From the NCBI RefSeq assembly GCF_002954355.1, contig NZ_MQVV01000012.1, positions 558,001 to 622,000 of the forward strand: a stretch of 64,000 nt of DNA, written 5' to 3'. The notes under the pieces were generated by a model. The model was not told the DNA's origin. It was given only the letters and a program-made list of their open reading frames with translations, and did no database searches. Position numbers and translations under genes: made by a program. Source of the DNA: Nonlabens tegetincola (lineage in GTDB: Bacteria > Bacteroidota > Bacteroidia > Flavobacteriales > Flavobacteriaceae). Of this stretch, positions 2,835-60,140 are shown one piece after another (position 1 is the stretch's first letter; the number at the start of each line of letters is the position of its first letter).

Positions 2835-2850
2835 CGCTTTCGCGAAAGCG
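2835..2850. repeat. 16-bp palindromic repeat, copy 1 (intergenic)
   Basis: Perfect palindrome CGCTTTCGCGAAAGCG, extended by A/T on each side to 18 bp. It is one of 14 copies in the window. It ends 5 bases upstream of the -7 box of the peroxiredoxin operon, in the spacer/-33 region, so a protein bound here would be expected to affect that promoter. Confidence 0.95.
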
Positions 2851-2965
2851 TGATTTTTTTTATCTTATATCAATATATGATTATAGAGTTTCCTTATGGT
2901 GTCAAATCAAAATAATAATTGTAACTTATTTTCTTAAAGGTGAAATTCTAACAGTTATAATAGAC

Positions 2966-2973
2966 TACCTTTG
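2966..2973 (+). promoter_or_regulatory. -7 promoter element of the RhlE-like helicase gene
   Basis: TACCTTTG, a perfect TANNTTTG -7 element, 54 bases upstream of the helicase start codon. The same TACCTTTG form recurs in front of argS and the second helicase gene in this window. Confidence 0.65.
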
Positions 2974-3027
2974 CAGTTATTCTAAAGTTGATATTCATTT
3001 TAATGATATCAATGGTAATTACCCTAT

Positions 3028-4296
3028 ATGTTATTTAAAGATTTAGGCTTATCTGCTGCCTTGTTGAAAGCGATCGACAAAAAAGGATACTCACAGCCTT
3101 CTCCCATTCAGGAAAAAGCTATACCACAAGTATTACAAGGAAAGGATGTTCTAGCCAGTGCACAAACGGGTACCGGAAAAACAGCTGGATTTACACTTCC
3201 ATTGCTACATAGATTAGGAGAATCTAAATCAAAAAAGAGACCAGTGCGAGCTCTTATTTTAACTCCAACAAGAGAACTTGCTGCTCAAGTATATGATAAT
3301 GTAAAAGAGTACAGTGAGTTTTTAAACGTACGTAGTGCTGTTATTTTTGGCGGAGTTAATCAGAATCCTCAAGTTGATTTACTTAAAAAAGGTGTTGATG
3401 TTCTTGTTGCTACTCCAGGACGATTGATCGATCTTAATAATCAAGGTTTCTTAAAACTTAATCAAGTAGAAACCTTAGTTCTAGACGAGGCAGACCGTAT
3501 GTTGGATATGGGATTTCTAAGAGACATAAAACGTATACTAGCCTTGCTGCCAGTAAAAAGGCAAAACTTATTATTCTCAGCTACATTTTCAAAAGAAATA
3601 AAAAAACTAGCAGCTAGTTTCCTCAATAATCCAGTGTTAGTAGAAGCAACTCCTGAAAATACTACTGCCGAAAAAGTAGATCAACTCATGTATAGAGTTG
3701 ATACTAAACAGAAGCAAGACGTGTTAATCGATATGATAACCGAAGGAAATTGGTCACAGGTTCTGGTGTTTACTCGTACTAAACATAGAGCAAACAGACT
3801 TGCTGAAAAATTGAACAAATCCAAAGTAACTGCAGCTGCTATACATGGTAACAAAAGTCAAGGTGCTCGTACAAGAGCGCTAGCTGGATTTAAAGACTCT
3901 AGTGTTAGAGTTTTAGTGGCAACTGATATTGCTGCTCGTGGATTAGATATCCCATTATTACCTTATGTGATCAATTATGAGCTGCCTAATGTGCCCGAAG
4001 ATTATGTTCATAGGATAGGTCGTACAGGTAGAGCAGGCGCTAGTGGACAGGCAATTTCTCTAGTAGCTGGTGATGAGGTTTCTTACGTAAAGGGAATTGA
4101 AAAACTCCTAGATCAACGATTCGATTTTGAAATTATAGAAGGTTATGAACCAGATCCTAATGCGCCTACTGAAAAGCCTAAACCACAGCAGAGAGGTCGT
4201 AAGAACAACGGCAAGCGCAGTTCTTCAAATAGGAACAAGAATAATTCTTCACGTTCTAATCGCAATAAAAATCCTAAAGGTCCAAAACGTAATTAA
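3028..4296 (+). CDS. rhlE: DEAD-box RNA helicase, RhlE-like
   Basis: A 422-residue ATP-dependent RNA helicase. All core motifs are visible: Q motif (GYSQPSPIQ), motif I AQTGTGKT, Ia PTRELAAQ, Ib TPGR, motif II DEAD, motif III SAT, motif [13 protein letters not shown] and motif [13 protein letters not shown] lysine/arginine/asparagine-rich tail of about 50 residues follows the helicase core and probably binds RNA. Such proteins act in rRNA maturation, ribosome assembly or RNA decay, often in the cold. The order of motifs and basic tail are most like the RhlE subfamily; a plain DeaD-type label is the alternative. It has its own -7 box and a strong terminator. Confidence 0.9.
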
Positions 4297-4298
4297 AC

Positions 4299-4332
4299 AA
4301 AAAAAACCTACACAAATGTGTAGGTTTTTTTT
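4299..4332. terminator. Bidirectional terminator between helicase and nhaC genes
   Basis: Thirteen-base-pair stem (4301-4313 with 4318-4330) with a four-base loop, A tract on the left and T tract on the right. It follows the helicase stop by a few bases and abuts the nhaC stop codon on the other strand, so it serves both convergent genes. Confidence 0.9.
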
Positions 4333-6097: not shown

Positions 6098-6161
6098 AAA
6101 CGTTATTCAGTTTTTAGGTAGTTACGTCGCAATATACTATTAAATGGGTAATTGTATATCA

Positions 6162-6177
6162 CGCTTTCGCGAAAGCG
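6162..6177. repeat. 16-bp palindromic repeat, copy 2 (intergenic)
   Basis: Perfect CGCTTTCGCGAAAGCG with A/T extension to 18 bp, in the divergent region between nhaC and trxB, 64 bases from the nhaC start and about 136 bases upstream of the trxB -7 box. Confidence 0.95.
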
Positions 6178-6321: not shown

Positions 6322-6339
6322 TTATAAATAATATGAACT

Positions 6340-7326: not shown

Positions 7327-7348
7327 ATTCTCAACTTAGTGTATAATA

Positions 7349-10959: not shown

Positions 10960-10975
10960 CGCTTTCGCGAAAGCG
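10960..10975. repeat. 16-bp palindromic repeat, copy 3 (intergenic)
   Basis: Perfect CGCTTTCGCGAAAGCG in the divergent region between the PadR operon and the DUF4442/men cluster. It lies 22 bases upstream of the TACATTTG -7 box at 10998, roughly where a -33 element would be. Confidence 0.95.
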
Positions 10976-14543: not shown

Positions 14544-15354
14544 CAATATTCATCAAGAAGATTATCCCTTTAATGAACTAATTAAAGCTCATCCACCTTT
14601 ATCCAAGTTTACAGTCCAGTTTCAGGATAAACCATCTATAAATTTTAATGATCCTTTAGCTTTAAAGGCTCTAAACAATGCTTTATTAGTACACTATTAT
14701 GGTATAACACCTATCGAATATCCTCATGGATATTTGCTAGCACCAGTTCCTAGTCGTGTAGACTATATACATCACATCGCAGATGAGGTTAAACCTGGTG
14801 CAAAGGGACTTGATATAGGTTGTGGAGCTACAGCTATTTATAGTTTATTGGGAGTAAGTTGCTACAATTTTAATATGATTGGATCAGAGGTTAGTGAGAA
14901 AAGTTACGCTTTCGCGAAAGCGAATACCAAAACAGTCCCTTCAATAGATATAAGACTACAATCCGATCGAGGAAGTATCTTCAAAAATATTATTCATAAA
15001 GGAGAGTATTTAGATTTCACGATTTGTAATCCACCATTTTTCAGTAGTGAGCAGGAAGCCATGAAGGCCTTTCAAAGAAAAGCTAAAAATTTAGGTGGCG
15101 ATAAAAAACACAACTTCTCGGGAACTGCCGATGAGTTATGGTGTAATGGAGGAGAAGCACTCTTTATCAAAAGGATGATCAAGGAATCGATTGATTATAA
15201 AACTCAGGTAGGTTTGTTCTCAACCTTAGTATCTCAAAAAGGACATATAGCTAGGCTTGAAAAACTTTTGACAAAAAAACAAGCAAATCACTATGTGAAA
15301 AGTTCAAAAATAGGCTCCAAGGTTGTTCATTATTTGTTTTGGAAATTTCGTTGA
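14533..15354 (+). CDS. rlmF: 23S rRNA (adenine(1618)-N6)-methyltransferase
   Basis: A 273-residue SAM-dependent methyltransferase that modifies A1618 of 23S rRNA. Family features are the N-terminal HQEDYPFNELIKAHPPLSKF, the SAM-binding GLDIGCGATAIYSLLG, the N6-adenine methylase motif ICNPPFFSS, and ELWCNGGEALFIKRMI. It overlaps menE by 11 bases and closes the men operon. A palindrome copy at 14907-14922 is read in frame as A-F-A-K-A in the helix after the second SAM-binding strand; compared with the E. coli protein from memory there is no obvious insertion there. Confidence 0.92.
   Translation: MHPNNIHQEDYPFNELIKAHPPLSKFTVQFQDKPSINFNDPLALKALNNALLVHYYGITPIEYPHGYLLAPVPSRVDYIHHIADEVKPGAKGLDIGCGATAIYSLLGVSCYNFNMIGSEVSEKSYAFAKANTKTVPSIDIRLQSDRGSIFKNIIHKGEYLDFTICNPPFFSSEQEAMKAFQRKAKNLGGDKKHNFSGTADELWCNGGEALFIKRMIKESIDYKTQVGLFSTLVSQKGHIARLEKLLTKKQANHYVKSSKIGSKVVHYLFWKFR
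14907..14922. repeat. 16-bp palindromic repeat, copy 4 (inside rlmF)
   Basis: Perfect CGCTTTCGCGAAAGCG inside coding sequence, translated as A-F-A-K-A near residues 126-130 of RlmF. The reading frame is intact. Confidence 0.95.
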
Positions 15355-19562: not shown

Positions 19563-20171
19563 CTAGTCTTCTAGAGCTTTTGCCTTAATTGGGTACATTT
19601 GATTAATATCTTTGACTACTTTTTCAACATTGTTGAGAGGAACATCTATAGTTATAGAACAGCTGGCGGTAAAATCCTGCAAGGCCATAGTGAGTCCTTG
19701 CTCTTCAATATACCTCATAACTTGACTCATTTGAGCGTATTCAAAGTCGATTTTCACTTGAGAAGTGATGGTTCTTGTTATAATTGTAGCCTGCTCAATG
19801 GCCAAAGCACTAGACTCTTTATAAGCATTTATTAATCCGCTCACACCTAATTTTGTTCCTCCGAATATCCTAGTAACTACTACTAGAACGTCGCTTAATT
19901 CATTTGAATTAATTTGACCTAGAATGGGATCACCTGCACTATGATTGGGTTCTCCATCGTCATTTGCCCTATAATTGTTTTCTCCAGGACCGATCTTCCA
20001 GGCATAACAATGATGATTTGCCTTCGGATATTTTTTCTTCAGAGCATCAATGATAGGTGAAACTTCATCTGGATTCTGGATTGGAAATGCACGAGCGTAG
20101 AATTTACTACCCTTGTCCTTGAATAAGATTTCAGTTGTTTCTTTTGCTATCGTTTTATAAGTGTCTCTCAT
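19563..20171 (-). CDS. YigZ/IMPACT family protein
   Basis: A 202-residue protein of the UPF0029/IMPACT family. The N-terminal domain has KKYPKANHHCYAWKIG, NDDGEPNHSAGDPILGQI and VVVTRIFGGTKLGVSGLINAYKESSALAI, and a smaller C-terminal ferredoxin-like domain follows. Its eukaryotic relative inhibits the Gcn2 kinase; the bacterial role is unsettled, probably in translation. I place the start at ATG 20171 (MRDTYKT): a longer frame would begin inside the EamA gene and run through the palindrome. The gap to the EamA stop is 4 bases, so it is the third gene of a ribD-EamA-IMPACT operon. Confidence 0.9.
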   Translation of the reverse strand: MRDTYKTIAKETTEILFKDKGSKFYARAFPIQNPDEVSPIIDALKKKYPKANHHCYAWKIGPGENNYRANDDGEPNHSAGDPILGQINSNELSDVLVVVTRIFGGTKLGVSGLINAYKESSALAIEQATIITRTITSQVKIDFEYAQMSQVMRYIEEQGLTMALQDFTASCSITIDVPLNNVEKVVKDINQMYPIKAKALED

Positions 20172-20175
20172 GAAT

Positions 20176-21054
20176 TTACGCTTTCGCGAAAGCGATGAAA
20201 ACAATCGCAATTATAGCAAGTATAATACCTAGAACGTTTCTAGATTTAAGTTTTTCTTTGAATAGAAATAAACCAAACATGGTTGATAATACTACGGTTC
20301 CTACATGGTTAATAGGGTAAACAAATGTACTCTCTAAACCAGGTGAATTGAGGGCTTTTAAAATCACCACAATTGAGAAAAAGTTAGGAATTCCTAGAAC
20401 AATTCCTCCGATAAGACTTTTCCATTCTAATTTCTCATTTTTATTAATTAACCGATATATCACAGCCGCAGATCCTGCTATAAATGCAAAAGAAAAAATT
20501 GTGGCACTTATAACATCTTCATTACTATTTGACATATGGTTGTTTTGTAGAATTTTGAGAACTGTATCAATTATACCGCTTCCTACAAATAGCGCTAGTG
20601 GTAAGAGTAGTTTTTTTGGAGTCCAATCTATATTTGACTGCGATTTCTTATTAACTGTGGTAAAATAAACTGCTGCTAGAGCGATTATTATACCTATGGC
20701 TTTTAATATATTCCACTCTTCATTAAATATTGTGAAACCTGCGATCACAGGTATAACTAATGACATTTTACTGGCAACACTGGCAACAGACAGGCCATTG
20801 CGCTGTGCCGTTAACGCCATGACATTGAAAATAGTTATGAAAAGAATTCCCATGAACATCGCTAGAAACAACCAGTCTGACTTTAAAACAGATGTTATAT
20901 CGTAAGTCCCATTGCTTGAAATAATACCTGTTATAAAAGCTACAAGATAATTTACCACTATAGCTTGTAGGGTGTTTATTTTATAAACATCAAACAATTT
21001 AAAAATTACATATAGTAAACTAGATAGTAATATGCTTAATCCTAGATAGATCAT
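20176..21054 (-). CDS. EamA family transporter (DMT superfamily)
   Basis: A 292-residue inner-membrane protein with ten hydrophobic segments in two EamA repeats, of the drug/metabolite transporter superfamily. A substrate cannot be named. Its start overlaps the ribD stop by 4 bases, so it might move riboflavin precursors or flavins, but this rests only on position. The C-terminus is unusual: the last codons before the stop, A-F-A-K-A, are encoded by a copy of the 16-bp palindrome. Confidence 0.87.
   Translation of the reverse strand: MIYLGLSILLSSLLYVIFKLFDVYKINTLQAIVVNYLVAFITGIISSNGTYDITSVLKSDWLFLAMFMGILFITIFNVMALTAQRNGLSVASVASKMSLVIPVIAGFTIFNEEWNILKAIGIIIALAAVYFTTVNKKSQSNIDWTPKKLLLPLALFVGSGIIDTVLKILQNNHMSNSNEDVISATIFSFAFIAGSAAVIYRLINKNEKLEWKSLIGGIVLGIPNFFSIVVILKALNSPGLESTFVYPINHVGTVVLSTMFGLFLFKEKLKSRNVLGIILAIIAIVFIAFAKA
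20179..20194. repeat. 16-bp palindromic repeat, copy 5 (3' end of EamA gene)
   Basis: Perfect CGCTTTCGCGAAAGCG forming the last sense codons of the EamA transporter (A-F-A-K-A, then stop). It also lies immediately upstream of the IMPACT start codon. Confidence 0.95.
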
Positions 21055-23282: not shown

Positions 23283-26200
23283 CTATTCCTTTTCTTTAAC
23301 CGCTGTTCTATTGTCGTTAGAGTTACGGTCTATCAATATGTTGAACGGATCAATTCCAACCTCTACAGGTTTTTCATCTACGATGATTGAGAATTTATTT
23401 TCAATAGCTACAATTTTATGTTTTTTGAGATAAAGAACCTTGTTAATTCCTGTTTCATCATCCTTTTCTCCAAAAACACCAACATCTATATAATCAGCTA
23501 GAGGTAATGATTTTAAGGCTTTTTTCTTTCCTTCAGGAGTGTATGAAAGGCTATCACCTACCGTGTTTTTATAAACACTTTTTCCTTTTTTGTCTGATCT
23601 ATACTTAGTTATGTATCCAGTAAATTCCACTTGATAACGACCATCATCAAGTTTTGTATACGTAGCTTTTTTTACATCATTATCATACAAAGTTATCGTT
23701 TCAAACATATCCTTAATAAGATATTGTAACGAGTCAGGAGTTGCGGCTCTTATATCGTCTACAAATTCGATAGCTGTTGGGTATGGTGGACCTTGGAACT
23801 GATATTTTTCTGCAAATTGTTTAATCACGTTATTAAATTGTTTCTCGCCTAAATAATCGCTCATTGCATAAAGGACTAAAGATCCTTTTTGATAATGAAT
23901 ATACTGTTGGTTTTCATTATACATCAATGGGTTTTCTCCAATGGACTCTACCGTTCTTCCTAAAAGGTATTTATCCATAGCGTCTTTAAGAAAAGACCTC
24001 ATTTGTTCTTTTCCTCTAGATTTCTCTAGAACTTTTAATGAACTGTATTCTGATAAACTTTCTGAAAGTAATGTAGCACCTTTCGCATAGGCTCCAATTA
24101 CCTGGTGTGCCCACCATTGATGGGCAAGTTCGTGTGCGGTAACACTAAAAGGGTAATCTACTGCATCCTTGTCACTTCCATCAACATCGGCAATGAAACC
24201 TATTCCTTCACTAAAAGGTATCGTGTTTGCAAACGCCTGTGCAAACGTTCCAAAATTTCTTGGGAATTCAATGATGCGTACTTGCCTGTGTTGATAAGGT
24301 GTAAAATTGTCATTATAATAATCTAGTCCGGCTTTAAGGCCAGCCATCATGCGGTCGATATTGTAATCATGATCTTTATGGTAATAGATTTCTAGTTTAA
24401 TGCCGTCGTGCTCGTCGCGCATGACTTCATATCTACCACTCATAAAATTGTAAAAATTCACCATTTTACTATCCATTTTATAATAGTAGTACTTACGGTT
24501 ATTTTCTTCCCACTCTTTAGTTAGATAACCTGGTGATATGGCAATTTGATCTGGACTTGTACTTAATGTAGCTTCAAAGTTTATCCAATCGCTGTTTCCG
24601 CCTATGTAATTATTGTCTCGCACACCTGGTTTAGTTGCGTCAGGCCAGCGATCTTTTGGAGGTAATTCATACTTTTTGCGAATTTGAGTATTTCGGATCT
24701 CTCCTTGATCATTGTATCCAATGGATGGAAAAACGAAATTATTCATGAAAGTTCCATTCTCAACAACAGGTGAGTTTTTTTCAAAGAAGGTGTTTTCTTT
24801 GTTGTAAGTTGCTACATTAAACTCTAGCGTATCTCCAGGTTGCAAGGGTGGCGTTATCCTATACATGCGATAACCATAGTCCTCGTTGTCGTAAACCACT
24901 TCAATTTTACGATCTGTTTCAATTGTGGTAAGTGTGTCGTTTATATTAACGTGCAGTGTATCAATTACGGCGCTGGACTTGTTGACCATAAGCATTTCTG
25001 CTCTAGCTTTAAAGTCTCTAGTTTCTGGATAAATATCAACAAACGCCTTAACATCAGTAATTCTAGGTTGGGGAACGTTTAAATATTTACTTAATTCCTT
25101 TTCTTTATTTACTGCCAGTAGTTCACGTTCTTTTCCTGTAGTTCTTTCATTATCAATGTTGTTAACTTTCCAAATGTAGCTTCCTATTCCTACAAATATT
25201 ATTAATCCTACACTAAGTAGTGTGGTGATAGGTGTTTTTAATCTCGCTTTCGCGAAAGCGATCCTCTCACTTGCACCTATGCTCATTCCACGTCTAAAGA
25301 ATAATAAACTAACACCAAATAGCGCTATACCTAATGCAATCCAGTAACCTCTAAATGTGAAGTAGCGCCAGATACTATCTCCATAACCATTCATATCTGA
25401 AGGACTAGGAGCGCCGGTTCCTTGGTTAAAAATAAATTGAGCTTGTTCAACTCCTATAGCCTCCATGGCAAATGGTAATCCTAAGGCAATTACAAGCAAG
25501 GTCATAAGTCCTAACCATTTATTTTTAATCAAAGTGTGAATTAAAATTGACATCAATATCCATGGTAAAAATTCCCAAAATTTGATCATGAACAAATCAA
25601 ACAAATAAAGGTCAATTTGATAATCATTAAAACCATTTACGGTTTGTATGATGATACCACTTAACATCACTATAACAAATAGAGAAAACACCATTATACT
25701 CATAGAGAATACTCGTGATAATTGGAAAACCCAGTTTTTAGTAGGAGTGGTGTCTACTAGCTGTAACATGTGAGCCGTTTTGGAACGGTCCATTATGAAG
25801 CCAGTGTACAGGTATATTAATAGATAGGTAAATGTGCTAAATATTCCTGCAGGGATTTGTAACATCAACCAGGTTTTTGGCAAGATGTCTGTACCATACA
25901 CTTGACCGCTTACCAACATAGTAAGAAGTGAAAAGGCAAAAGCAATTACCGCTATAATAATAAATGGCCATCCTGTTACAATGTATTTAATGTCTGATTT
26001 TGATATTGTCCAAGCTGTTTTCAATTGATTAAAAAAGCTGAAGTTTTGACTTACCTTAGGTAAGGTAATATCCTGAACAGTTCCAAAATTACGTTTGATT
26101 ACTCGTGATGATTTCTTCTTTCTCCCTACCGAAATAGCATGTTGAGAAAATCTAAAACCAACGATTACAGAAAGGAATAGAATAACGGAAAACCCTAACC

Positions 26201-26948
26201 ACAATAATCTATTATACAATACAGTACCATCGGTAGGTAATAATTTACTGCCTTGCTCATCTGGTGTCCAGTATTTAATTCTTTGTCCAATAGCACTTTC
26301 TCCAGTAGGTTCTAGAAGTTCTATCCAAAATGTATCATCTACAGAATCTAATGAACTAGCAGCAGCAAATTGACAGATAATCAAGATGAGCACACTCATG
26401 AAACCTAAATTGATGTTTCTGAAGTAGGTCGTTATAGCAAAAACGATGGCTCCATAGAAAAATACATTAGGTATTACCATTACTAAAAATGGTTGAATGT
26501 AATTCATGAGTGAGAAAGGTCCTATCAAATCTTCATTAGCTCCAGGTAAGTAAAAGCCAATTGTAACGGCCAGCATACTTGCAAGAATAATTAATAGTGT
26601 AAGTAGCATCCCAGCACTGAATTTTGCTAATAAGTAACTTACTTTATTTAAGGGATAGGAATAAAGTACGTGGTGCATGTTACTGCTAAAGTCACGTTGG
26701 ATAGTTCCTCCTATAATACTAGGTATAAGTAAATAAGTGATTAATATACCACCACTTATTAAACTATAAACTCCTACTGCACTGTTTAGATAAAAAGGAG
26801 AAGTAACGGTTACAGAGTCACTATCAAATACTCCAACGGAAAGTGCGGTAATTAATAAGCTTAATAGAAAGATAACTCCAGTATAAATATAGAACAGTGG
26901 TTTCTTAAACCAGGTTCTAAGCTCGTGTAAAAAAATAGTACTAAACAT
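23283..26948 (-). CDS. ABC transporter permease fused to M1 family metallopeptidase
   Basis: A 1221-residue fusion. Residues about 1-600 contain two sets of ABC-2-type membrane segments (MFSTIFLHELRTWFKKPLF at the start is typical of ABC-2 permeases). Residues about 620-1221 are an M1 aminopeptidase-like domain with zinc motif HELAHQWW (about 936-943) and the third ligand Glu in SESLSEY, 18 residues further. The gluzincin domain probably faces the periplasm. The ATPase gene precedes it by two bases, so together they form an exporter with an attached peptidase. This architecture is known in Bacteroidota but its substrate is not. A palindrome copy encodes residues near 563-568, between membrane and peptidase parts. 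Confidence 0.9.
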   Translation of the reverse strand: MFSTIFLHELRTWFKKPLFYIYTGVIFLLSLLITALSVGVFDSDSVTVTSPFYLNSAVGVYSLISGGILITYLLIPSIIGGTIQRDFSSNMHHVLYSYPLNKVSYLLAKFSAGMLLTLLIILASMLAVTIGFYLPGANEDLIGPFSLMNYIQPFLVMVIPNVFFYGAIVFAITTYFRNINLGFMSVLILIICQFAAASSLDSVDDTFWIELLEPTGESAIGQRIKYWTPDEQGSKLLPTDGTVLYNRLLWLGFSVILFLSVIVGFRFSQHAISVGRKKKSSRVIKRNFGTVQDITLPKVSQNFSFFNQLKTAWTISKSDIKYIVTGWPFIIIAVIAFAFSLLTMLVSGQVYGTDILPKTWLMLQIPAGIFSTFTYLLIYLYTGFIMDRSKTAHMLQLVDTTPTKNWVFQLSRVFSMSIMVFSLFVIVMLSGIIIQTVNGFNDYQIDLYLFDLFMIKFWEFLPWILMSILIHTLIKNKWLGLMTLLVIALGLPFAMEAIGVEQAQFIFNQGTGAPSPSDMNGYGDSIWRYFTFRGYWIALGIALFGVSLLFFRRGMSIGASERIAFAKARLKTPITTLLSVGLIIFVGIGSYIWKVNNIDNERTTGKERELLAVNKEKELSKYLNVPQPRITDVKAFVDIYPETRDFKARAEMLMVNKSSAVIDTLHVNINDTLTTIETDRKIEVVYDNEDYGYRMYRITPPLQPGDTLEFNVATYNKENTFFEKNSPVVENGTFMNNFVFPSIGYNDQGEIRNTQIRKKYELPPKDRWPDATKPGVRDNNYIGGNSDWINFEATLSTSPDQIAISPGYLTKEWEENNRKYYYYKMDSKMVNFYNFMSGRYEVMRDEHDGIKLEIYYHKDHDYNIDRMMAGLKAGLDYYNDNFTPYQHRQVRIIEFPRNFGTFAQAFANTIPFSEGIGFIADVDGSDKDAVDYPFSVTAHELAHQWWAHQVIGAYAKGATLLSESLSEYSSLKVLEKSRGKEQMRSFLKDAMDKYLLGRTVESIGENPLMYNENQQYIHYQKGSLVLYAMSDYLGEKQFNNVIKQFAEKYQFQGPPYPTAIEFVDDIRAATPDSLQYLIKDMFETITLYDNDVKKATYTKLDDGRYQVEFTGYITKYRSDKKGKSVYKNTVGDSLSYTPEGKKKALKSLPLADYIDVGVFGEKDDETGINKVLYLKKHKIVAIENKFSIIVDEKPVEVGIDPFNILIDRNSNDNRTAVKEKE
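25245..25260. repeat. 16-bp palindromic repeat, copy 6 (inside permease-M1 gene)
   Basis: Perfect CGCTTTCGCGAAAGCG read on the minus strand as I-A-F-A-K-A-R in a polar loop of the fusion protein. Reading frame intact. Confidence 0.95.
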
Positions 26949-29586: not shown

Positions 29587-29602
29587 TGCTTTCGCGAAAG
29601 CG
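29587..29602. repeat. 16-bp palindromic repeat, copy 7 (intergenic)
   Basis: Exact 14-bp core GCTTTCGCGAAAGC at 29588-29601; the outer pair is T/G instead of C/G. It lies in the divergent region between the hypothetical gene and argS, about 98 bases upstream of the argS -7 box. Confidence 0.93.
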
Positions 29603-33074: not shown

Positions 33075-33090
33075 CGCTTTCGCGAAAGCG
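33075..33090. repeat. 16-bp palindromic repeat, copy 8 (intergenic)
   Basis: Perfect CGCTTTCGCGAAAGCG; the symmetry extends over TTAC...GTAA to 22 bp, the longest perfect arm in the set. It lies 66 bases after the helicase gene and 114 bases before the OmpH-like gene. Confidence 0.95.
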
Positions 33091-36521: not shown

Positions 36522-37005
36522 ATGACTGATTCTATTTTATGGCTTTTACTTATTTTTTTATATCGATTCTTTTTTAAGTTTCAATAATGATTACCGTTTA
36601 TACGATGGCTTTATCATAGATAGGCATAAAGATAGTTCAACACTATATGCTTTATCTGGATTAAGTTTTTGTCTAGGTTATCTTATTACCGTCTATCTAT
36701 GGCTTACTTCCCATATTAATCATATCGATAGAAGAATTTCAGGATTTGCGAGGTATGGAGCAACACAAGTATTTTTCTATTTTTTTATGATATTGTATTT
36801 TGTTTTTAAAATGCAATCAGTCACTATGGAATATGCCCAGATAATAGTTCAAGAATACCAATATAGCTTTTGGTTGTTACCAGTTTTTCTCTTTCTTTTT
36901 GCAAATCAGCACCTATCTAGAATTTACAAAAATTGGGTGCAACTTATATTTTCATCAATAAGCATTACTGCTGCCTGCTTGTTGTTGATACTAATTGTCG
37001 GTTAG
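36522..37005 (+). pseudogene. Small membrane protein gene with a homopolymer frameshift
   Basis: An open frame runs without a stop from 36526 to 37005 (159 codons) and encodes a plausible four-segment membrane protein (NDYRLYDGFIIDRHKDSS, ALSGLSFCLGYLITVYLW, FWLLPVFLFLFANQHLS), but it has no ATG, GTG or TTG before codon 88. The ATG at 36522 opens another frame (MTDSILWLLLIF) that hits a stop at 36585. Removing one base from the run of seven T at 36553-36559 joins the two into one protein of about 160 residues. It is therefore a frameshift mutation, a phase-variable tract or a sequence error. Its stop overlaps the meaB stop on the other strand. Family not recognised. Confidence 0.7.
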
Positions 37006-38012
37006 AGAGAAAGTAATCTGTCGGCTGCATCAAATGCCGATATTTTACGCTCAACAACAGAAGTTTCTATCTCTTTAATTTGATTTATTATTTCGGATCT
37101 TGAATAAAATGCTTCTTTTAATCGGTCTTCTATAGTTTGATGTAACCAGTATAATTCCTGTGAATTACGACGTTCCAGTAAACTACCGTTTTGATTACTA
37201 TGTTGTCTAAATGATGCAATCTCTTGAGCAATTTCTTCAATGCCTTCATTGTGCAATCCACTACATAAATGCACCTTAACTGGATATTGATGGGATTTAG
37301 GATTTAAAAGATGCAACGCATTTTGAAACTCTCTTCTGGCATGTAAAGCCGCTTTTTTATTATCACCATCAGCTTTATTAATGATGACAGCATCGGCCAT
37401 TTCCATTATTCCTCGTTTAATCCCTTGTAAATCGTCACCAGCGCCTGCTAGTTTAAGGAGAAGGAAAAAGTCAGTCATGCTGTGAACCGCAGTTTCGCTT
37501 TGACCGACTCCAACAGTTTCCACCATAATAAAGTCAAATCCTGCCGCCTCACACAGCAAGATGGCTTCTCTGGTTTTTCTTGCCACGCCACCTAGAGTTT
37601 CGCCTGCCGGACTAGGTCTTATATAAGCAAATTCACTTTTAACCAATTGTTCCATTCTAGTTTTGTCTCCTAGTATGCTTCCCTTGGAAACGCTACTACT
37701 GGGATCAATAGCTAGTACAGCTACCTTAAAACCTAATTTGATTAAATGAATTCCTAGAGACTCTATAAATGTTGATTTGCCTACTCCTGGAACGCCAGTT
37801 ATTCCTAATCTAAAGGAGTTTCCTGAATAGGGTAGTGCTTGTTGTAGTAACGCTTTCGCGAAAGCATAATCCTCACTAGCTTTACTTTCAACACCAGTTA
37901 TTGCTCTACTTAAAGCACTTATATCTCCTTTTCTTAATTTCTCAAAAACTTCCTGTGAGGAAGGTTTTTTCCTGCGTTGCCAGGATTTAGGATTAAGGTG
38001 CTCTAAACTCAT
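37002..38012 (-). CDS. meaB: Methylmalonyl-CoA mutase-associated GTPase MeaB
   Basis: A 336-residue G3E-type GTPase (ArgK/MeaB) that guards and loads adenosylcobalamin-dependent methylmalonyl-CoA mutase. Walker A is GVPGVGKST (73-81); other G motifs are AIDPSSSVSKGSILGDKTRM, MVETVGVGQSE and NKADGDN. The mutase genes are not in the window, but a PduO-type cobalamin adenosyltransferase is encoded 5 kb away. A palindrome copy encodes Ala50-Ala54 (A-F-A-K-A) in the helix before the P-loop, where homologues recalled from other Bacteroidota have a similar-length segment. The next gene upstream ends 5 bases before its start. Confidence 0.95.
   Translation of the reverse strand: MSLEHLNPKSWQRRKKPSSQEVFEKLRKGDISALSRAITGVESKASEDYAFAKALLQQALPYSGNSFRLGITGVPGVGKSTFIESLGIHLIKLGFKVAVLAIDPSSSVSKGSILGDKTRMEQLVKSEFAYIRPSPAGETLGGVARKTREAILLCEAAGFDFIMVETVGVGQSETAVHSMTDFFLLLKLAGAGDDLQGIKRGIMEMADAVIINKADGDNKKAALHARREFQNALHLLNPKSHQYPVKVHLCSGLHNEGIEEIAQEIASFRQHSNQNGSLLERRNSQELYWLHQTIEDRLKEAFYSRSEIINQIKEIETSVVERKISAFDAADRLLSL
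37851..37866. repeat. 16-bp palindromic repeat, copy 9 (inside meaB)
   Basis: Exact 14-bp core GCTTTCGCGAAAGC at 37852-37865; the last outer base is A. Read on the minus strand as Y-A-F-A-K-A-L in MeaB. Frame intact. Confidence 0.93.
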
Positions 38013-44209: not shown

Positions 44210-44641
44210 TTAAAGCTTCATAAGAAGGGCAATTAATCGTTTTTTCTCCTCGTCGTTAAGGTTTTGAGTGATTTCACTTTCTTTTTCGTCCACTTGATGG
44301 TCGAGGATAGTTAGTAGATTTAATCCTTCTTGAGTTATGGTAATTTCAATTTGTCTGCGATCTGACGGACATTGTACTCGTTTTACCAATTTTTTTGTAA
44401 CTAATTTATCGATTACTCTAGTGGTGTTAGAATTGGCGTGAATCATGTCCTTGCTTACATCCTGTAAACTGGCTGGTTTACCATTTCTACCTCTTAAAAT
44501 ACGCAATGCATTAAATTGTTGAAGGGTTATTCCTTGCTCTTTTATAGCGCTACTTACTTCATCAGTAAAGTCGGTACCCTTCTTGATGATTGTAGTGGTT
44601 AGCTTTCGCGAAAGCGGAATATGCATTTTGTTTTCTTTCAT
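44210..44641 (-). CDS. MarR family transcriptional regulator
   Basis: A 143-residue winged-helix repressor: dimerisation helices at both ends, and a central wHTH with LQQFNALRILRGRNGKPASLQDVSKDMIHANSNTTRVIDKLVTKKLVKRV followed by the wing CPSDRRQIEITITQEG. It likely senses a small ligand and controls itself and the yceI gene 49 bases downstream, judged from a shared upstream element at 44656-44670 and 44177-44191, and probably also the second yceI 6 kb away. The N-terminal residues L-S-R-K are encoded by a palindrome copy. Confidence 0.93.
   Translation of the reverse strand: MKENKMHIPLSRKLTTTIIKKGTDFTDEVSSAIKEQGITLQQFNALRILRGRNGKPASLQDVSKDMIHANSNTTRVIDKLVTKKLVKRVQCPSDRRQIEITITQEGLNLLTILDHQVDEKESEITQNLNDEEKKRLIALLMKL
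44601..44616. repeat. 16-bp palindromic repeat, copy 10 (inside marR)
   Basis: Exact 14-bp core GCTTTCGCGAAAGC at 44602-44615. Read on the minus strand in the alternative frame as P-L-S-R-K-L near the MarR N-terminus, not as A-F-A-K-A. Confidence 0.93.
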
Positions 44642-47587: not shown

Positions 47588-47603
47588 CGCTTTCGCGGAA
47601 GCA
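47588..47603. repeat. 16-bp palindromic repeat, copy 11 (intergenic, degenerate)
   Basis: CGCTTTCGCGGAAGCA: the 14-bp core has one mismatch and the outer base differs. It ends 6 bases upstream of the -7-like box at 47610, the same placement as at the peroxiredoxin promoter. Confidence 0.85.
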
Positions 47604-50661: not shown

Positions 50662-50677
50662 CGCTTTCGCGAAAGCG
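50662..50677. repeat. 16-bp palindromic repeat, copy 12 (intergenic)
   Basis: Perfect CGCTTTCGCGAAAGCG with TTA/GTA extension, 83 bases upstream of the grpE start, in the divergent region with the second yceI. Confidence 0.95.
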
Positions 50678-54884: not shown

Positions 54885-54888
54885 CAAG

Positions 54889-55770
54889 ATGAAATTAGAC
54901 TGGCAATCCATTAAAGATTTTTTGACCTATCAAATAATTGAAGCAAAGGAAAAGGGCGATTTTCATTTAGACACATGGATGGTGATTCTTGCCATTGTTG
55001 CTTTACTTGCAACCAAGGTCCTCTTAAGAGTATTGAAAAAAATTCTTACTCGTAAAATGGATCACAGTGACAAACTAAAATTTGATAGTATTTTCAGGTT
55101 TTTTAACTATCTGGTTTACATCATTGTTATCTTGGTTATACTGAATAGTTCTGGAGCAGATATTACGGCATTACTTACAGCCAGTGCCGCGTTATTCGTC
55201 GGGATTGGATTTGCTTTACAGGACTTCTTCAAGGATATCATAGCAGGTATAACAATTATCGTGGATAAATCGGTTCTGGTTAATGACATCATAGAAGTAG
55301 ATGATAAGGTAGGTCGTGTTTTTGAAATCAAATTAAGAAGTACGAGAGCCATCACAAGAGACGATAAAGTATTGATTATACCTAATCACTTATTTCTCTC
55401 GGACATTGTTTTTAATTACACACAAAATCATGCAAAAACAAGAGAAAAGGTAGGAGTAGGAGTAGCCTATGGAAGTGATACACGACTAGTAGAAAAAATA
55501 CTACTCGAGGTTGCGAATAATCAAAAAGGAGTGCTTAAAAGTCCAGAACCCATGGTTCTATTTCAAAATTTTGGAGATAGTTCTTTAGATTTTGAACTGT
55601 TTTTTTACGTACGCGATGCTTTTACCGATCCTAAAATTAAGAGTAGTCTGCGTTTTGAAATTGACAAAGCTTTTAGAGAAAACAAGATATCAATACCGTT
55701 CCCTCAACGAGATTTACACCTAGTATCTTCTAATATCACATGGAAAAAAGATGATGAAAAAACTGATTAA
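54889..55770 (+). CDS. Mechanosensitive ion channel, MscS family
   Basis: A 293-residue small-conductance mechanosensitive channel that releases solutes on osmotic downshock. Three N-terminal membrane helices end in the pore helix SSGADITALLTASAALFVGIGFALQDFFKDIIAGI, followed by the beta domain (VNDIIEVDDKVGRVFEIKLRSTRAITRDDKVLIIPNHLFLSDIVFNYT) and the alpha/beta domain ending EIDKAFRENKISIPFPQRDLHL, a strong family signature. It is 4 bases after the permease gene and overlaps the next gene by 20 bases. Confidence 0.95.
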   Translation: MKLDWQSIKDFLTYQIIEAKEKGDFHLDTWMVILAIVALLATKVLLRVLKKILTRKMDHSDKLKFDSIFRFFNYLVYIIVILVILNSSGADITALLTASAALFVGIGFALQDFFKDIIAGITIIVDKSVLVNDIIEVDDKVGRVFEIKLRSTRAITRDDKVLIIPNHLFLSDIVFNYTQNHAKTREKVGVGVAYGSDTRLVEKILLEVANNQKGVLKSPEPMVLFQNFGDSSLDFELFFYVRDAFTDPKIKSSLRFEIDKAFRENKISIPFPQRDLHLVSSNITWKKDDEKTD

Positions 55771-56638
55771 AATATTAATACTGATAATTGTTGTTCTCGC
55801 TTTCGCGAAAGCGAACTCACAAGCAACTGATCTATTTAGAACAGAATTTACGTATTTCCCACAAAGTGATAGTGATAATAGCTTTAGGAGATTTAGAACC
55901 TTTGTCAATGTTCCATTGAAAGTAAAAGAGCAATCTTATCTAGTTCCTTTCATAGAATATAGGAACGTTCACTTACTAATAAGAGATGATGAACGATTTA
56001 GACAACTTAAGACTGATAGGTATGAAAGTATTGAAGTTGCCCTAGGATACACATTTCCTATGGAGAATAATTGGAGATTTGGTGCAAGGGTAGGTTTATT
56101 AGCAGCATCAAATTTTGATGAGGCAAAGCCAATAAGTGAAGATTTGTTTTTTACAGGAAGTGCTTACTTCATCAAGGACATGAAAAAAAGAACAGATGGT
56201 GGAAAACCATGGCGACTTGTATTAGGTGTGCAGTACTCAACAACGGTTGGTCGACCATTCCCATTACCTTACGTAAATTATTACAGAGAGTTTGCAACAG
56301 ATTGGAGCTATAGTATAGGAGCTCCCAAAATGAATTTAAGATATAGATTTAATGATCAACATAGTGTACAATTATATGCAAGATTAGATGGTTTTTATGC
56401 TAATATTCAAAACGACGTAAACACAATTAATGGAGTTGCTGATAATATAAGTATGACAACTGCCATGATGGGACCAGGTTATACATATAACTTAACAAAG
56501 CATATTTCATTTTATGTATATGCAGGATACACTATCTTTAACGATATAAGATTAAGAGATGCAGATGGAGAAGATGTGCGCACTATTAATAGCAGCAATA
56601 CATTTTATTCTAGAGCAGGTATAAAATTTCAAATTTAA
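55751..56638 (+). CDS. DUF6268 family outer-membrane beta-barrel protein
   Basis: A 295-residue exported protein with a signal peptide ending AFAKANSQ and many amphipathic strands (SIEVALGYTFPMENNWRFGARVGLLAA, WRLVLGVQYSTTVGRPFPLPYVNYYREFATDWSYSIGAPKMNLRYRF, FYSRAGIKFQI), matching DUF6268. The function is unknown. It overlaps the MscS gene by 20 bases and the response-regulator gene by one base. Part of its signal peptide (A-F-A-K-A) is encoded by a palindrome copy. Start at 55751; 55754 is also an ATG. Confidence 0.85.
   Translation: MMKKLIKILILIIVVLAFAKANSQATDLFRTEFTYFPQSDSDNSFRRFRTFVNVPLKVKEQSYLVPFIEYRNVHLLIRDDERFRQLKTDRYESIEVALGYTFPMENNWRFGARVGLLAASNFDEAKPISEDLFFTGSAYFIKDMKKRTDGGKPWRLVLGVQYSTTVGRPFPLPYVNYYREFATDWSYSIGAPKMNLRYRFNDQHSVQLYARLDGFYANIQNDVNTINGVADNISMTTAMMGPGYTYNLTKHISFYVYAGYTIFNDIRLRDADGEDVRTINSSNTFYSRAGIKFQI
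55798..55813. repeat. 16-bp palindromic repeat, copy 13 (inside DUF6268 gene)
   Basis: Perfect CGCTTTCGCGAAAGCG, read as L-A-F-A-K-A-N at the end of the signal peptide. The sequence is tolerated at the cleavage region of the signal. Confidence 0.95.
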
Positions 56639-57801
56639 TGGCACAAATACTTATTATAGAAGATGAAAGCGCAATTAGAAGAGTGCTGGGTAAAATATTA
56701 AGTGAAGAGGATAAGAATTACAAAATCACTGAAGCCGAGGATGGTCTTGCAGGTATGGACCTTATAAAGGACAACGATTATGATCTGGTACTTTGTGATA
56801 TAAAAATGCCCAAAATGGATGGAGTAGAGGTTTTGGAAGCTGTTCAAAAAATAAAGCCCGAAACTCCTGTAGTAATGATTTCTGGACATGGCGATTTAGA
56901 TACTGCTGTTCAAACTATGAGATTAGGAGCTTTTGATTACATTTCAAAACCACCAGATTTAAATAGGCTGTTGAATACTGTGCGCAACGCCTTAGATCGT
57001 AAAACTCTAGTCGTAGAAAATAAGCGACTAAAGAAAAAGGTAAGTAAGAATTACGAGATGATTGGTGAGAGTGAATTAATTTCAATAATCAAAAATATTA
57101 TTGAGAAAGTAGCTCCTACAGATGCCCGGGTCTTAATAACCGGTGGGAATGGTACAGGTAAAGAACTTGTGGCTCACTGGTTACATGAAAAAAGTGATCG
57201 TTCAAAAAAGCCATTCATTGAAGTTAATTGTGCCGCTATTCCTAGTGAACTCATAGAAAGTGAGCTCTTTGGTCATGTTAAAGGTAGCTTTACTGGAGCA
57301 AATAAAGATCGTGCAGGAAAATTTGAAGCCGCAAATGGCGGAACCATTTTTCTCGATGAAATAGGTGATATGTCATTGCCTGCTCAAGCCAAAGTTTTAC
57401 GAGCGTTACAAGAAAATAGAATTCAACGAGTAGGTAGTGATAAGGATATACAGGTAAATGTGAGAATTCTTGCAGCTACAAATAAGGATCTAAAAAAAGA
57501 AATTGAAGAAAAAAGATTTAGAGAAGATCTATATCATAGACTCGCTGTGATTTTAATAAACGTTCCATCACTGAATGAACGACGTGATGATATACCCTTA
57601 TTGGTAGAGCACTTTGCACAAAAAATAGCTCAGGAACAAGGTGGTTCAAGAAAAGAGTTTCATGCTAATGCAATTAAATTATTGCAAGAATATGATTGGA
57701 CGGGAAATATTAGAGAATTACGTAATGTAGTGGAACGACTAATCATATTAGGAGGAGAAGAGATTAGTGAAAATGATGTCAAACTATTTGCAAGTAAATA
57801 A
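56638..57801 (+). CDS. Sigma-54-dependent response regulator lacking the DNA-binding domain
   Basis: A 387-residue NtrC-type protein. The receiver domain (1-120) has phospho-acceptor Asp54 in LVLCDIKMPKMDG; the AAA+ domain (about 140-370) has Walker A GGNGTGKE, the sigma-54 contact loop GSFTGA, Walker B GGTIFLDEIGDM and the arginine finger region. It ends at WTGNIRELRNVVERLIILGGEEISENDVKLFASK with no Fis-type helix-turn-helix, so it may activate sigma-54 RNA polymerase from solution or through a partner. No histidine kinase gene is adjacent. One-base overlaps (TAATG and equivalent) link it to both neighbours. Confidence 0.9.
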   Translation: MAQILIIEDESAIRRVLGKILSEEDKNYKITEAEDGLAGMDLIKDNDYDLVLCDIKMPKMDGVEVLEAVQKIKPETPVVMISGHGDLDTAVQTMRLGAFDYISKPPDLNRLLNTVRNALDRKTLVVENKRLKKKVSKNYEMIGESELISIIKNIIEKVAPTDARVLITGGNGTGKELVAHWLHEKSDRSKKPFIEVNCAAIPSELIESELFGHVKGSFTGANKDRAGKFEAANGGTIFLDEIGDMSLPAQAKVLRALQENRIQRVGSDKDIQVNVRILAATNKDLKKEIEEKRFREDLYHRLAVILINVPSLNERRDDIPLLVEHFAQKIAQEQGGSRKEFHANAIKLLQEYDWTGNIRELRNVVERLIILGGEEISENDVKLFASK

Positions 57802-58685
57802 TGGAATTCAACGTAACGCCATCAGATTTTAAAGTTGACTCTACTTTTAACCTGTCATCTCATCCTACCTTACCTTTAGATATTTTAGAAAAAAAAGAGG
57901 CAAAAAAAAGGCTAGCTAAGGTTAGAAGAGAATTAGCACATTTCCAGGCTAGAATGTATGCCCATGACAAACACGCTGTACTGGTCTGTTTTCAAGGTAT
58001 GGATACGGCAGGAAAGGATAGCTTAGTAAGAGAAGTTTTTAAAGACTTTAATGTGAGAGGTGTTGAACATTATAGTTTTAAAGTACCTACCGATTTAGAA
58101 CGTTCACATGGATACTTATGGCGTCACTATATAGCTTTACCTTCAAAAGGTCATTTTGGAATTTTTAATAGAACACATTATGAAAATGTGTTAGTGACTA
58201 GAGTACATCCAGAATACCTGATGGAAGAAAATCTCCCTGATTTTAATGATCCTAGCGATGCTAATTCTGATTTTTGGAGTATGCGATTTGAACAAATCAA
58301 CAATTTCGAAAAAGAACTTACGCAAAATGGCACCTTTATATTTAAGTTCTTTTTGAATATCAGCAAGCAAGAACAAAAAAATCGCTTATTAAGGAGATTG
58401 CACATACCAGAAAAAAACTGGAAGTTTTCCGATGGAGATCTAGCAGAGAGGAAACTTTGGGGTAAATATATGGATTGTTATCAAGACGCTATAAAAAATA
58501 CTTCGACAACATACGCACCGTGGTATGTAGTGCCGTCAGACAATAAACCAATGGCAAGATTAATAGTTGCTGAGGTTTTGAATCAAACACTGCAACAATT
58601 TAGTGAGATACAACCACCTAAATTAGACTTGGATAAAGCAGCTAATATTCAGAGTTATATCAGCCAATTAGAAAACGAGGAATAA
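57801..58685 (+). CDS. Polyphosphate kinase 2 family protein
   Basis: A 294-residue PPK2 enzyme that transfers phosphate between polyphosphate and nucleoside mono- or diphosphates. Walker A is FQGMDTAGKDSLVREVF, Walker B/lid residues are FGIFNRTHYENVLVTRVHPEYL, and the lid region has RRLHIPEKNWKFSDGDLAERKLWGKYMDCYQDAIKNTSTTYAPWYVVPSDNK. The class (ADP-, AMP- or both) cannot be decided with certainty. Its start overlaps the response-regulator stop by one base; it is the last gene of the six-gene operon. Confidence 0.93.
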   Translation: MEFNVTPSDFKVDSTFNLSSHPTLPLDILEKKEAKKRLAKVRRELAHFQARMYAHDKHAVLVCFQGMDTAGKDSLVREVFKDFNVRGVEHYSFKVPTDLERSHGYLWRHYIALPSKGHFGIFNRTHYENVLVTRVHPEYLMEENLPDFNDPSDANSDFWSMRFEQINNFEKELTQNGTFIFKFFLNISKQEQKNRLLRRLHIPEKNWKFSDGDLAERKLWGKYMDCYQDAIKNTSTTYAPWYVVPSDNKPMARLIVAEVLNQTLQQFSEIQPPKLDLDKAANIQSYISQLENEE

Positions 58686-58772
58686 ATTCTAGTTACATTC
58701 TAACCTTGAATTTTTTAATTCTATTGATGTGACAAAAGTACCCCAATATGTTATCGTGAGCATTTGATTGTT

Positions 58773-58780
58773 TAGTTTTG
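58773..58780 (+). promoter_or_regulatory. -7 promoter element of the MATE gene
   Basis: TAGTTTTG, perfect TANNTTTG, 25 bases before the GTG start at 58806. Confidence 0.6.
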
Positions 58781-58805
58781 GCGCCTTAATCACAAAAAAT
58801 CTGGC

Positions 58806-60140
58806 GTGAACCTAGTATCATATAAACAAGAATTTTTTACTAATTACAAAATTGCCTATCCTATAGTTTTAGGACAGGTAGCTCATTTATTAGTAGCGTT
58901 GGCTGATAATGTTATGGTAGGTAAACTGGGAGATGCTCCTCTTGCAGCAGTATCCTTGGGAAACACCCTTATCTATATTGCATTAAGTATTGGTATTGGG
59001 TTCTCCTTCGCTATAACGCCATTAGTATCTACAGCACAAGGTCAGGAAAATTGGACCAAGGTTAAAAGGATTCTAGACAACGGAGTGTTCCTATCCTTTA
59101 TTATGGGAATATTACTCACTACATTACTTATAGTGGCAGAACCTCTATTATTTTACATGGATCAACCAGCAGAAGTTGTTGAACTCGCGATTCCGTACAT
59201 GCATATTGTCTCTATATCCATGGTGCCATTAATGTTATTTCAGGCCTTCAAGCAATTTTCTGATGGGTTGAGTCTTACTAAACATGCAATGAACGCTGCA
59301 ATTATTGCAAACGTGATAAACGTAATGTTGAACTATCTATTAATTTATGGAGAGTTTGGTTTTCCAAAATTAGGATTAGTAGGTGCAGCATGGGGTACTT
59401 TAGTATCTAGAATAATCATGGTGATAATAATTTATATTTCGCTTTCGCGAAAACCGAGTCTACACCAACAATTCAAGGGTCCAATATTTATATCTAAGAC
59501 CAATATCACTAAAATCTTATCGTTAGGATTCCCCACTGCATTGCAAATGTTGTTTGAAGTGTCTCTTTTTACAGGAGCAATATTTTTATCTGGTATGTTG
59601 GGAACAAAACATCAGGCTGCAAATCAAATTGCATTGAATTTATCTGCATTAACATTTATGTTCGGTATAGGATTAGGAGTTACAGCTACTATTCGAGTAG
59701 GAAACCAACTAGGGAAAAGAAATTTCGCTTACATGAAGCAAATTGTAAAAAGCTTATTTTTTATGGTTCTAGTAATTGAGATCCTATTCATGTGTTTATT
59801 CTTCATCGGAAGAAATTACCTGCCTTGGATTTATATAAACGATACAGAGGTTATACAGATAGCCTCACATTTATTGCTAATAGCAGCAATTTTTCAGGTT
59901 AGTGACGGAATACAAGTTTTCCTTTTAGGATTATTGCGTGGATTGCATGATGTTTGGTATCCTAGTTTATTTTGCCTTATAAGTTATTGGTGCATTGGAT
60001 TTCCTTTGGCGTATTACTTGGGGCTACACACTTATTTATCTTCAATGGGTATATGGGTAGCCTTATTAATTGCGTTAACATCATCGGCAACTATGATGTT
60101 TTTCAGATATAAGTATTTAGTGAGAAGGATTGCAATGTAG
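58806..60140 (+). CDS. MATE family efflux transporter (GTG start)
   Basis: A 444-residue inner-membrane pump with 12 hydrophobic segments in two MatE repeats (PIVLGQVAHLLVALADNVMVGKLGDAPLAAVSLGN and its second-half counterpart LSLGFPTALQMLFEVSLFTGAIFLSGMLGTKHQAANQIALNLSAL). It exports cationic drugs or metabolites in exchange for H+ or Na+. The start is GTG at 58806; no ATG precedes the conserved N-terminus, and the -7 box supports this position. A degenerate palindrome copy encodes L-S-R-K in a loop near residue 214. Confidence 0.93.
   Translation: MNLVSYKQEFFTNYKIAYPIVLGQVAHLLVALADNVMVGKLGDAPLAAVSLGNTLIYIALSIGIGFSFAITPLVSTAQGQENWTKVKRILDNGVFLSFIMGILLTTLLIVAEPLLFYMDQPAEVVELAIPYMHIVSISMVPLMLFQAFKQFSDGLSLTKHAMNAAIIANVINVMLNYLLIYGEFGFPKLGLVGAAWGTLVSRIIMVIIIYISLSRKPSLHQQFKGPIFISKTNITKILSLGFPTALQMLFEVSLFTGAIFLSGMLGTKHQAANQIALNLSALTFMFGIGLGVTATIRVGNQLGKRNFAYMKQIVKSLFFMVLVIEILFMCLFFIGRNYLPWIYINDTEVIQIASHLLLIAAIFQVSDGIQVFLLGLLRGLHDVWYPSLFCLISYWCIGFPLAYYLGLHTYLSSMGIWVALLIALTSSATMMFFRYKYLVRRIAM
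59440..59455. repeat. 16-bp palindromic repeat, copy 14 (inside MATE gene, degenerate)
   Basis: CGCTTTCGCGAAAACC: one mismatch within the 14-bp core. It is read as S-L-S-R-K-P in the MATE transporter, the alternative frame also used in marR. Confidence 0.85.

Follow-up and report, generated by a model that had tools for sequence, protein, structure and literature searches.

Sequence-specific DNA uptake signals are known from two proteobacterial families, the Pasteurellaceae with their uptake signal sequences (USS) and the Neisseriaceae with their DNA uptake sequences (DUS). One study ties the spacing of DUS to the size of conversion fragments (PMC2397512), and another regards the very strong consensus as an anomaly for binding sites of the ordinary kind (PMC1626085). 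Within the Flavobacteriaceae natural competence is described for Riemerella, where R. columbina reportedly prefers its own DNA, while a k-mer count named no proven signal (PMC7965970). A further study lists ComEC, DprA, ComF and RecA in the Riemerella machinery, together with four proteins unknown elsewhere in transformation and without homology to known transformation machinery, one of them a DUF5689 protein (PMC8459023). Here we analyze a window of 64,000 nucleotides (the whole stretch, positions 558,001 to 622,000 of contig NZ_MQVV01000012.1) from Nonlabens tegetincola, which contains evenly spaced copies of a 14-bp palindrome, GCTTTCGCGAAAGC. There is, in our judgment, an even chance that this palindrome and the tracts flanking it constitute a self-DNA uptake or exchange signal that is kept by motif-biased exchange between cells.

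A preliminary description of the window had claimed 14 copies of a 16-bp palindrome at quasi-regular spacing, with far less than one copy expected by chance. All 14 positions were recovered, 12 as exact 14-mers and two (47589 and 59441) as one-mismatch copies, and a search allowing up to two mismatches found none beyond them in the window. The full 16-mer CGCTTTCGCGAAAGCG of the title is whole at only 9 of the 14 positions. Dinucleotide shuffles of the window yield a mean of 0.07 copies and a maximum of one. The intervals range from 2987 to 6750 bp, with a mean of 4354, a standard deviation of 1083 and a coefficient of variation (CV) of 0.25, and none of 100,000 uniform placements was as regular. 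Counting across the window's own genome (hereafter G000; 3,028,293 b in 21 contigs), as the preliminary description had proposed, gave 577 exact copies of GCTTTCGCGAAAGC and none of the reversed pattern, which does not match random expectation.

The iteration extends throughout the genus, with 319-893 copies of the 10-bp core in all 23 Nonlabens genomes against 4-16 of the reversed control. We surveyed 397 Flavobacteriaceae genomes from 231 genera, taken from a larger set and with no genus contributing more than a few. In these the 12-mer reaches 580-685 copies in each of the four Nonlabens genomes, 917 in a genome that groups with Dokdonia (G499) and 445 in one from a third genus (G579); the remaining genomes have at most 21 each, and any copy at all is present in 106 of the 397. 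The motif-rich genera are thus three of the 231 sampled. An order-level sample likewise shows any copy in 60 of 395 genomes, of which only two Nonlabens genomes and G499 are rich. The placement of G499 comes from a quickly built tree of a single gene, encoding the DEAD-box helicase (104 of 110 loci kept; G579 and G051, with distant paralogues only, left out), in which it joins a Dokdonia metagenome-assembled genome (support 100, 79% identity), separate from Nonlabens. The helicase gene of the window shows 71-75% identity to its closest named relatives, which are Nonlabens. Among 80 named loci exact copies occur in six from Nonlabens and one from Dokdonia, and the other 73 have none; in those 73, each taken from around the DEAD-box helicase gene, a different sequence, TTTTCATGAAAA, reaches 16 copies where 0.5 are expected. 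No other iterated palindrome of like enrichment was found in the sampled rich and poor genomes. Searches of the open-licence literature with the 14-mer, 12-mer, 10-mer and keywords, through listings of titles and starts of abstracts, returned no report of the motif, which appears unreported as far as open-licence papers show.

Nonlabens copies follow a nearly all-or-none pattern, whereas the other two genera have a looser site, as seen in the mismatch counts. A sample of 426,900 b of G000 contains 88 exact copies, 6 with one mismatch, none with two and 10 with three, and five mononucleotide shuffles of the same sample give means of 0, 0, 1.2 and 9.2, respectively. The corresponding counts are 94, 11, 5 and 16 in a second Nonlabens genome (G154), 88, 15, 22 and 25 in G499, and 36, 21, 14 and 43 in G579. 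Alignment of the 88 exact G000 sites adds ATTWC next to the core at its left and the complementary GWAAT at its right (ATTWC-GCTTTCGCGAAAGC-GWAAT). Farther out, from about -19 to -4 (about 16 nt), the strand entering the palindrome 5' is poor in C and rich in T and G, with no depletion of G. Relative to off-motif half-site hexamers of the same genome, the C fraction of this flank is 0.053 against 0.178 in G000, 0.079 against 0.188 in G154, 0.058 against 0.200 in G163 and 0.068 against 0.178 in G499, with a weaker bias in G579 (0.167 against 0.224). The bias is seen on the left and right separately in G000, G154 and G499, more weakly in G579, and in ORF (open reading frame) and intergenic sites alike. 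This symmetry indicates an element of about 50 bp whose strand polarity inverts at its center, a layout that is a statistical trait of the genome-wide set and not of each single site. Whatever its function, the flank signature tells real copies from chance ones. G579 itself has 46% GC, a looser site and a short flank bias.

This anatomy bears on two further suggestions of the preliminary description. A dimeric protein site agrees with the symmetric core, but a plain symmetric dimer is an incomplete account, as the composition of each flank is strand-specific (keto) for about 16 nt. The copies with mismatches provide a weak test of half-sites, asking whether the tract is lost only next to a mutated half: in G499 the C fraction is 0.131 on the mutated side and 0.081 on the intact side, and the other three genomes show no consistent difference between the two sides. 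The second suggestion was an analogy to the highly iterated palindrome HIP1 of cyanobacteria; a palindrome of this kind would be made by a DNA methyltransferase together with mismatch repair. The motif is indeed palindromic, iterated and CG-centered, and such palindromes have been linked to methyltransferases (PMC4390886). However, HIP1 is an 8-mer with abundant one-nucleotide variants, which the 6 one-mismatch and 0 two-mismatch copies beside 88 exact ones in G000 do not resemble (G499 and G579 have more), and the spacing here is strongly regular. We therefore regard an origin of this kind as highly improbable.

Spacing was compared with a null model of 2000 simulations per genome, in which every stretch retained its number of sites and the sites their gene/intergenic preference. 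Over 424,000 b of G000 the intervals are far from exponential, with a CV of 0.37 against 0.91 in the null, and none is shorter than 1,400 bp where 22.1 are expected. The CV is 0.50 in G154 and 0.54 in G499, with 8 intervals below 1,400 bp against 30.4 expected and 10 against 32.8, respectively. In none of these three genomes was any of the 2000 simulations as regular as the observed sites. With ORFs called mechanically (ATG starts, at least 80 aa), 61 of 94 sites in G000, 60 of 105 in G154 and 61 of 103 in G499 lie inside ORFs, which make up 88% of the DNA, so that sites are 3- to 4-fold enriched between ORFs. Within the window, 7 of the 14 sites are intergenic, six of these in divergent regions (Table 1), as might be expected of a site for a global transcription factor, or of a terminator. 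Nevertheless, 59 of the 88 exact G000 sites are inside ORFs, the intergenic sites are spread over divergent, tandem and convergent DNA about as expected from the amount of each, and no gene-orientation bias around them is consistent across the three genomes (convergent regions have one site in G000 and nine in G154). Promoter and terminator roles are thus disfavored by placement, and we consider a regulatory site of either kind hardly probable at all.

The even distribution could alternatively reflect a lineage-specific chromosome-organizing protein, a clamp loader like Noc or ParB or a nucleoid bridge, with one site every few kb. The binding sites of parS/Noc type have a dyad-symmetric core of 14-16 bp, and the long dyad-symmetric core, the over-regular spacing, the lack of a consistent gene-orientation bias and the presence of sites in all 20 stretches sampled across the G154 chromosome (2-10 per stretch) would all suit such a role. 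Against it, parS and Noc sites are few and either cluster at the origin or are lacking at the terminus, unlike the 577 copies here, with sites in every sampled stretch of G154 and in all 18 full 20-kb stretches sampled in G000; islands and the ribosomal-protein operon contain gaps of 11-16 kb; strand-polar flanks are not expected of a plain double-strand dimer site; and no reader was found, ParB paralogues not having been searched for. An organizing role thus seems unlikely to us. The sampled DNA has 12 gaps of at least 9 kb without a site (up to two mismatches), counted as ending at the stretch end where they reach it, and the five longest were annotated in part, with 4-6 proteins each (Table 1). 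An apparent 14-kb gap (G000:C10:55588-69895) turned out to contain two one-mismatch sites. The last 7.4 kb of the window's contig, with tRNA-Ile/Ala and a probable rRNA operon, has no copy, but is little longer than the longest interval.

Table 1. Copies of the palindrome in the 64,000-nucleotide window, one whole element, and the longest site-free gaps in the sampled DNA
Feature	Position	Strand	Context
Exact 14-mer core	2836..2849	.	Divergent intergenic region
Exact core	6163..6176	.	Divergent intergenic region
Exact core	10961..10974	.	Divergent intergenic region
Exact core	14908..14921	.	Within RNA methyltransferase gene (PF05971, 14533-15354 +)
Exact core	20180..20193	.	Overlap of minus-strand ORFs 19563-20210 (UPF0029) and 20176-21054
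Exact core	25246..25259	.	Within 1221-aa gene, peptidase M1 domain (23283-26948 -)
Exact core	29588..29601	.	Divergent intergenic region
Exact core	33076..33089	.	Intergenic; begins 68 bp past end of DEAD-box helicase gene
Exact core	37852..37865	.	Within meaB GTPase gene (37002-38012 -)
Exact core	44602..44615	.	Close to predicted start of MarR-family regulator ORF (44210-44641 -)
One-mismatch core	47589..47602	.	Divergent intergenic region
Exact core	50663..50676	.	Divergent intergenic region
Exact core	55799..55812	.	Close to predicted start of DUF6268 ORF (55751-56638 +)
One-mismatch core	59441..59454	.	Within MatE transporter gene (58806-60140 +)
Whole-element example	25227..25278	.	About 19 nt C-poor (+ strand), palindrome, about 19 nt G-poor
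Longest gap, L114			Ribosomal-protein operon
Longest gap, L316			Putative mobile/defence-like island (AAA_24, DUF3871, ORC-CDC6-like)
Longest gap, L319			Putative island, polysaccharide-like locus (glycosyltransferase, asparagine synthase)
Longest gap, L329			Putative integrase island
Longest gap, L332			Ordinary genes

Conservation at orthologous positions, which the preliminary description had proposed to examine, is pronounced within Nonlabens: the exact site is kept in 56 of 107 directed ORF comparisons (mean protein identity 67%; the comparisons are not independent), whereas control 14-mers are kept in 170 of 7149 (2.4%). Excluding the 1221-aa gene it is kept in 36 of 77. Counted as distinct sites, 38 of 46 are matched exactly in one or more partners, or 33 of 41 if the 1221-aa gene is left out. 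In contrast, none of 48 comparisons with motif-poor relatives shows the exact site and two show it within two mismatches. The 1221-aa gene, for which 20 of 24 loci were used, provides the most detailed case. The exact site occupies the same codons in 15 of its 20 full-length Nonlabens orthologs (including that of the window), and a sixteenth has a one-mismatch copy there; in three others the peptide Ala-Phe-Ala-Lys-Ala or Ala-Ile-Ala-Lys-Ala is encoded by other codons, and one is wholly different. In several species in which the right flank is without G the corresponding peptides are threonine-rich. Across the rich genera the exact site is common to four gene pairs, two between G154 and G579, one between Nonlabens antarcticus (L022) and G499 and one between G499 and G579, which could reflect common ancestry, exchange or convergence.

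To distinguish substitution from insertion, alignment gaps at sites were compared with those at random positions of the same pairs, setting aside sites outside the local alignment. Nonlabens sites fall at gaps in 4 of 36 comparisons with motif-poor relatives (control 52 of 628) and in 3 of 99 comparisons with each other (39 of 1915); for G579 the figures are 0 of 6 against poor relatives (7 of 116) and 2 of 12 against the other rich genera (21 of 236). A copy-inserting element, such as the repetitive extragenic palindromes (REP) mobilized by REP-associated tyrosine transposases (RAYT), would account for the high copy number and the identical cores, and in G499 five of nine distinct genic sites do lie at gaps relative to motif-poor relatives. 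In Nonlabens, however, 32 of 36 sites lie inside gap-free alignment with such relatives, with synonymous precursors at the same codons, the gap lengths in G499 vary, and the spacing is regular. Furthermore, REP and the related bacterial interspersed mosaic elements are inserted extragenic copies, whereas 59 of 88 sites here are in ORFs and those of Nonlabens are mostly gap-free. The gap test thus disfavors a mobile palindrome for Nonlabens, and we deem copy insertion extremely improbable.

Taken together, the even spacing, the apparent origin by substitution in Nonlabens, the restriction to a few lineages, and the absence from two phages, the ribosomal-protein operon and some islands make an uptake signal the best supported of the analogues named in the preliminary description. 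Under such a scheme Nonlabens, the Dokdonia-like bacteria and one further genus would import DNA with the transformation machinery of the Flavobacteriaceae, comprising ComEC and surface proteins such as the DUF5689 lipoprotein, mostly with no secretin. A surface or periplasmic reader would prefer the duplex ATTWC-GCTTTCGCGAAAGC-GWAAT with its strand-polar flanks, which may aid bending or melting of the DNA, and the imported motif-bearing fragments would recombine into the chromosome. Such recombination would restore, copy and spread sites by substitution, and a new site would gain little where another lies within 1-2 kb, which would result in even spacing. More tentatively, and with somewhat less than even confidence, we propose that this is an independent palindromic self-DNA code in the Bacteroidota, read partly as single strand (the GT-rich 3' side of each half), acting in secretin-independent import and possibly in recombination too, and common to three genera, which could exchange DNA by means of it. 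An uptake signal here would constitute a further case, in another phylum, with a different architecture and mostly without a secretin, and thereby provide a test of repeated evolution by molecular drive; it would also point to the DNA receptor of the Flavobacteriaceae.

ComEC and DUF5689 are present in all nine motif-rich genomes tested. G030 is the only one of the 30 genomes to lack a DUF5689 match and the only one to lack ComEC, a joint absence that is consistent with a functional link of the two. In most of the loci L396-L424 a long same-strand ORF ends just before the DUF5689 lipoprotein gene, and the end of its product resembles an outer-membrane barrel; by eye the arrangement recalls SusC/SusD. 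Pfam searches with two partial pieces of this long ORF gave no match, and neither did a profile search of the DUF5689 proteins against PDB up to E = 1. DUF5689 as a transferred reader that would explain the lineage limit is unsupported, as its tree needs three changes and carries a long-branch warning.

Several observations weigh against an uptake signal. The uptake signals described so far are not known to be palindromic. We found no uptake assay for the motif-rich genera among the literature matches listed, none of which names Dokdonia. Motif-poor genera have ComEC and DUF5689 just as regularly (20 of 21 each), so the two do not account for the restriction to a few lineages; nor are all rich genomes united in the DUF5689 tree, which places G499 with G579 and G010 apart from the other Nonlabens. 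A secretin (PF00263) is present in just one of the nine motif-rich genomes, and since the other eight lack it a pilus-secretin route is unlikely. The uptake signals of H. influenzae are denser, at about 1 per kb (PMC7811141), and most neisserial DUS are intergenic (PMC2397512), whereas most sites of the Nonlabens type lie in ORFs. One of the five longest site-free gaps (L332) contains ordinary genes. Moreover, sites fall at gaps more often than random positions do when G499 is compared with poor relatives (6 of 11 sites, 10 of 204 control positions) or with the other rich genera (3 of 8 sites, 12 of 174 control positions), and when Nonlabens is compared with the other rich genera (4 of 16 sites, 23 of 330 control positions). 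The gaps vary in length and reveal no fixed-size inserted unit; sites may tend to lie in variable protein regions.

The distribution on mobile DNA belongs in part to the same list. Two Nonlabens phages (70,700 b, with no integrase among the annotated genes) have no site within two mismatches, but two prophage-like contigs carry spaced sites (L168, with a head protease and an endolysin, and L151, with an integrase and a tape measure protein). In motif-poor genera the copies examined (16 stretches with 31 exact sites, most of them picked for clustered copies) are largely found in metal-resistance islands, with genes for RND efflux, outer-membrane efflux, a P-type ATPase, an integrase and ParB (L001-L016; ten proteins were labeled by Pfam and the others by eye). 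These island copies keep the flank signature (C 0.091 against a base of 0.192), which suggests that the DNA once resided in a motif-rich host, and the islands are probably transfers from such hosts. The islands include a recurrent 933-bp pair of motifs, one at either end of an outer-membrane efflux gene. A centromere role for this pair and for the clusters in other genera was dropped when annotation gave RND efflux, P-type ATPase, integrase and ParB genes. Among the viral matches listed, 7 stretches from three multiply listed contigs (3300039191_000362, 3300038696_000259 and 3300040801_003070) keep the flank signature (C 0.085 against a base of 0.190), while 69 single-hit stretches are without it (0.270 against 0.268); the three contigs are possibly phages or proviruses of motif-rich hosts.

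The flank polarity and the phage distribution can also be reconciled with a palindromic, two-way version of a Chi site, at which AddAB, meeting it from either side, would stop degrading DNA and RecA would load onto the GT-rich 3' single strand immediately 5' of the palindrome, with the tract of about 16 nt as the stretch for RecA nucleation. Under this alternative both 3' tails would be GT-rich, in keeping with the observed polarity; the density of 1 per 4-7 kb is near that of Chi in E. coli; the two phages lack the site and some prophage-like contigs have it; and an AddB-size PDDEXK_1 protein (PF12705) is encoded by all 30 genomes. However, none of the 30 has a RecC-type protein, the known Chi sites are 5-8 nt long and are not known to be palindromic, and with only partial recognition it is hard to see why close pairs would be strictly excluded. 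Likewise, AddB as a transferred reader is unsupported, since a tree of partial AddB sequences needs three changes and does not group the rich genera, although its starred branches force only one change and are compatible with one origin. On this evidence a Chi-like role appears rather unlikely to us. In G000 the PDDEXK_1 matches, one AddB-like and one AddA-like (C10:164170 and C10:521166), are about 357 kb apart, whereas the pairs in most other genomes with two matches are about 5 kb apart.

Comparison with the known systems places the element closest to USS and DUS, with which it shares limitation to particular lineages, hundreds of copies, a very strong consensus, even spacing, an apparent origin by substitution in Nonlabens, intergenic enrichment and rarity in newly acquired and strongly constrained DNA, as well as tracts beside the core in the case of USS. 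It differs from them in being palindromic and longer, with keto tracts on both sides, in its density of about 1 per 4-7 kb, in having most sites in ORFs, in the absence of a secretin from 8 of 9 genomes and in belonging to another phylum. Chi, as read by RecBCD or AddAB, matches it in density, GT-rich strand polarity and the presence of an AddB-type protein, but the element is at least 14 bp long, palindromic and strictly spaced, and is confined to three sampled genera even though the AddB-type protein is found in 30 of 30 genomes. With parS and Noc sites it has the dyad-symmetric core in common, but it is present in hundreds of evenly spread copies rather than in a cluster or some tens, and has strand-polar flanks. 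Finally, like HIP1 (GCGATCGC) it is an iterated CG-rich palindrome, but one that is part of a far longer element, with very few near-misses in Nonlabens and a regular spacing.

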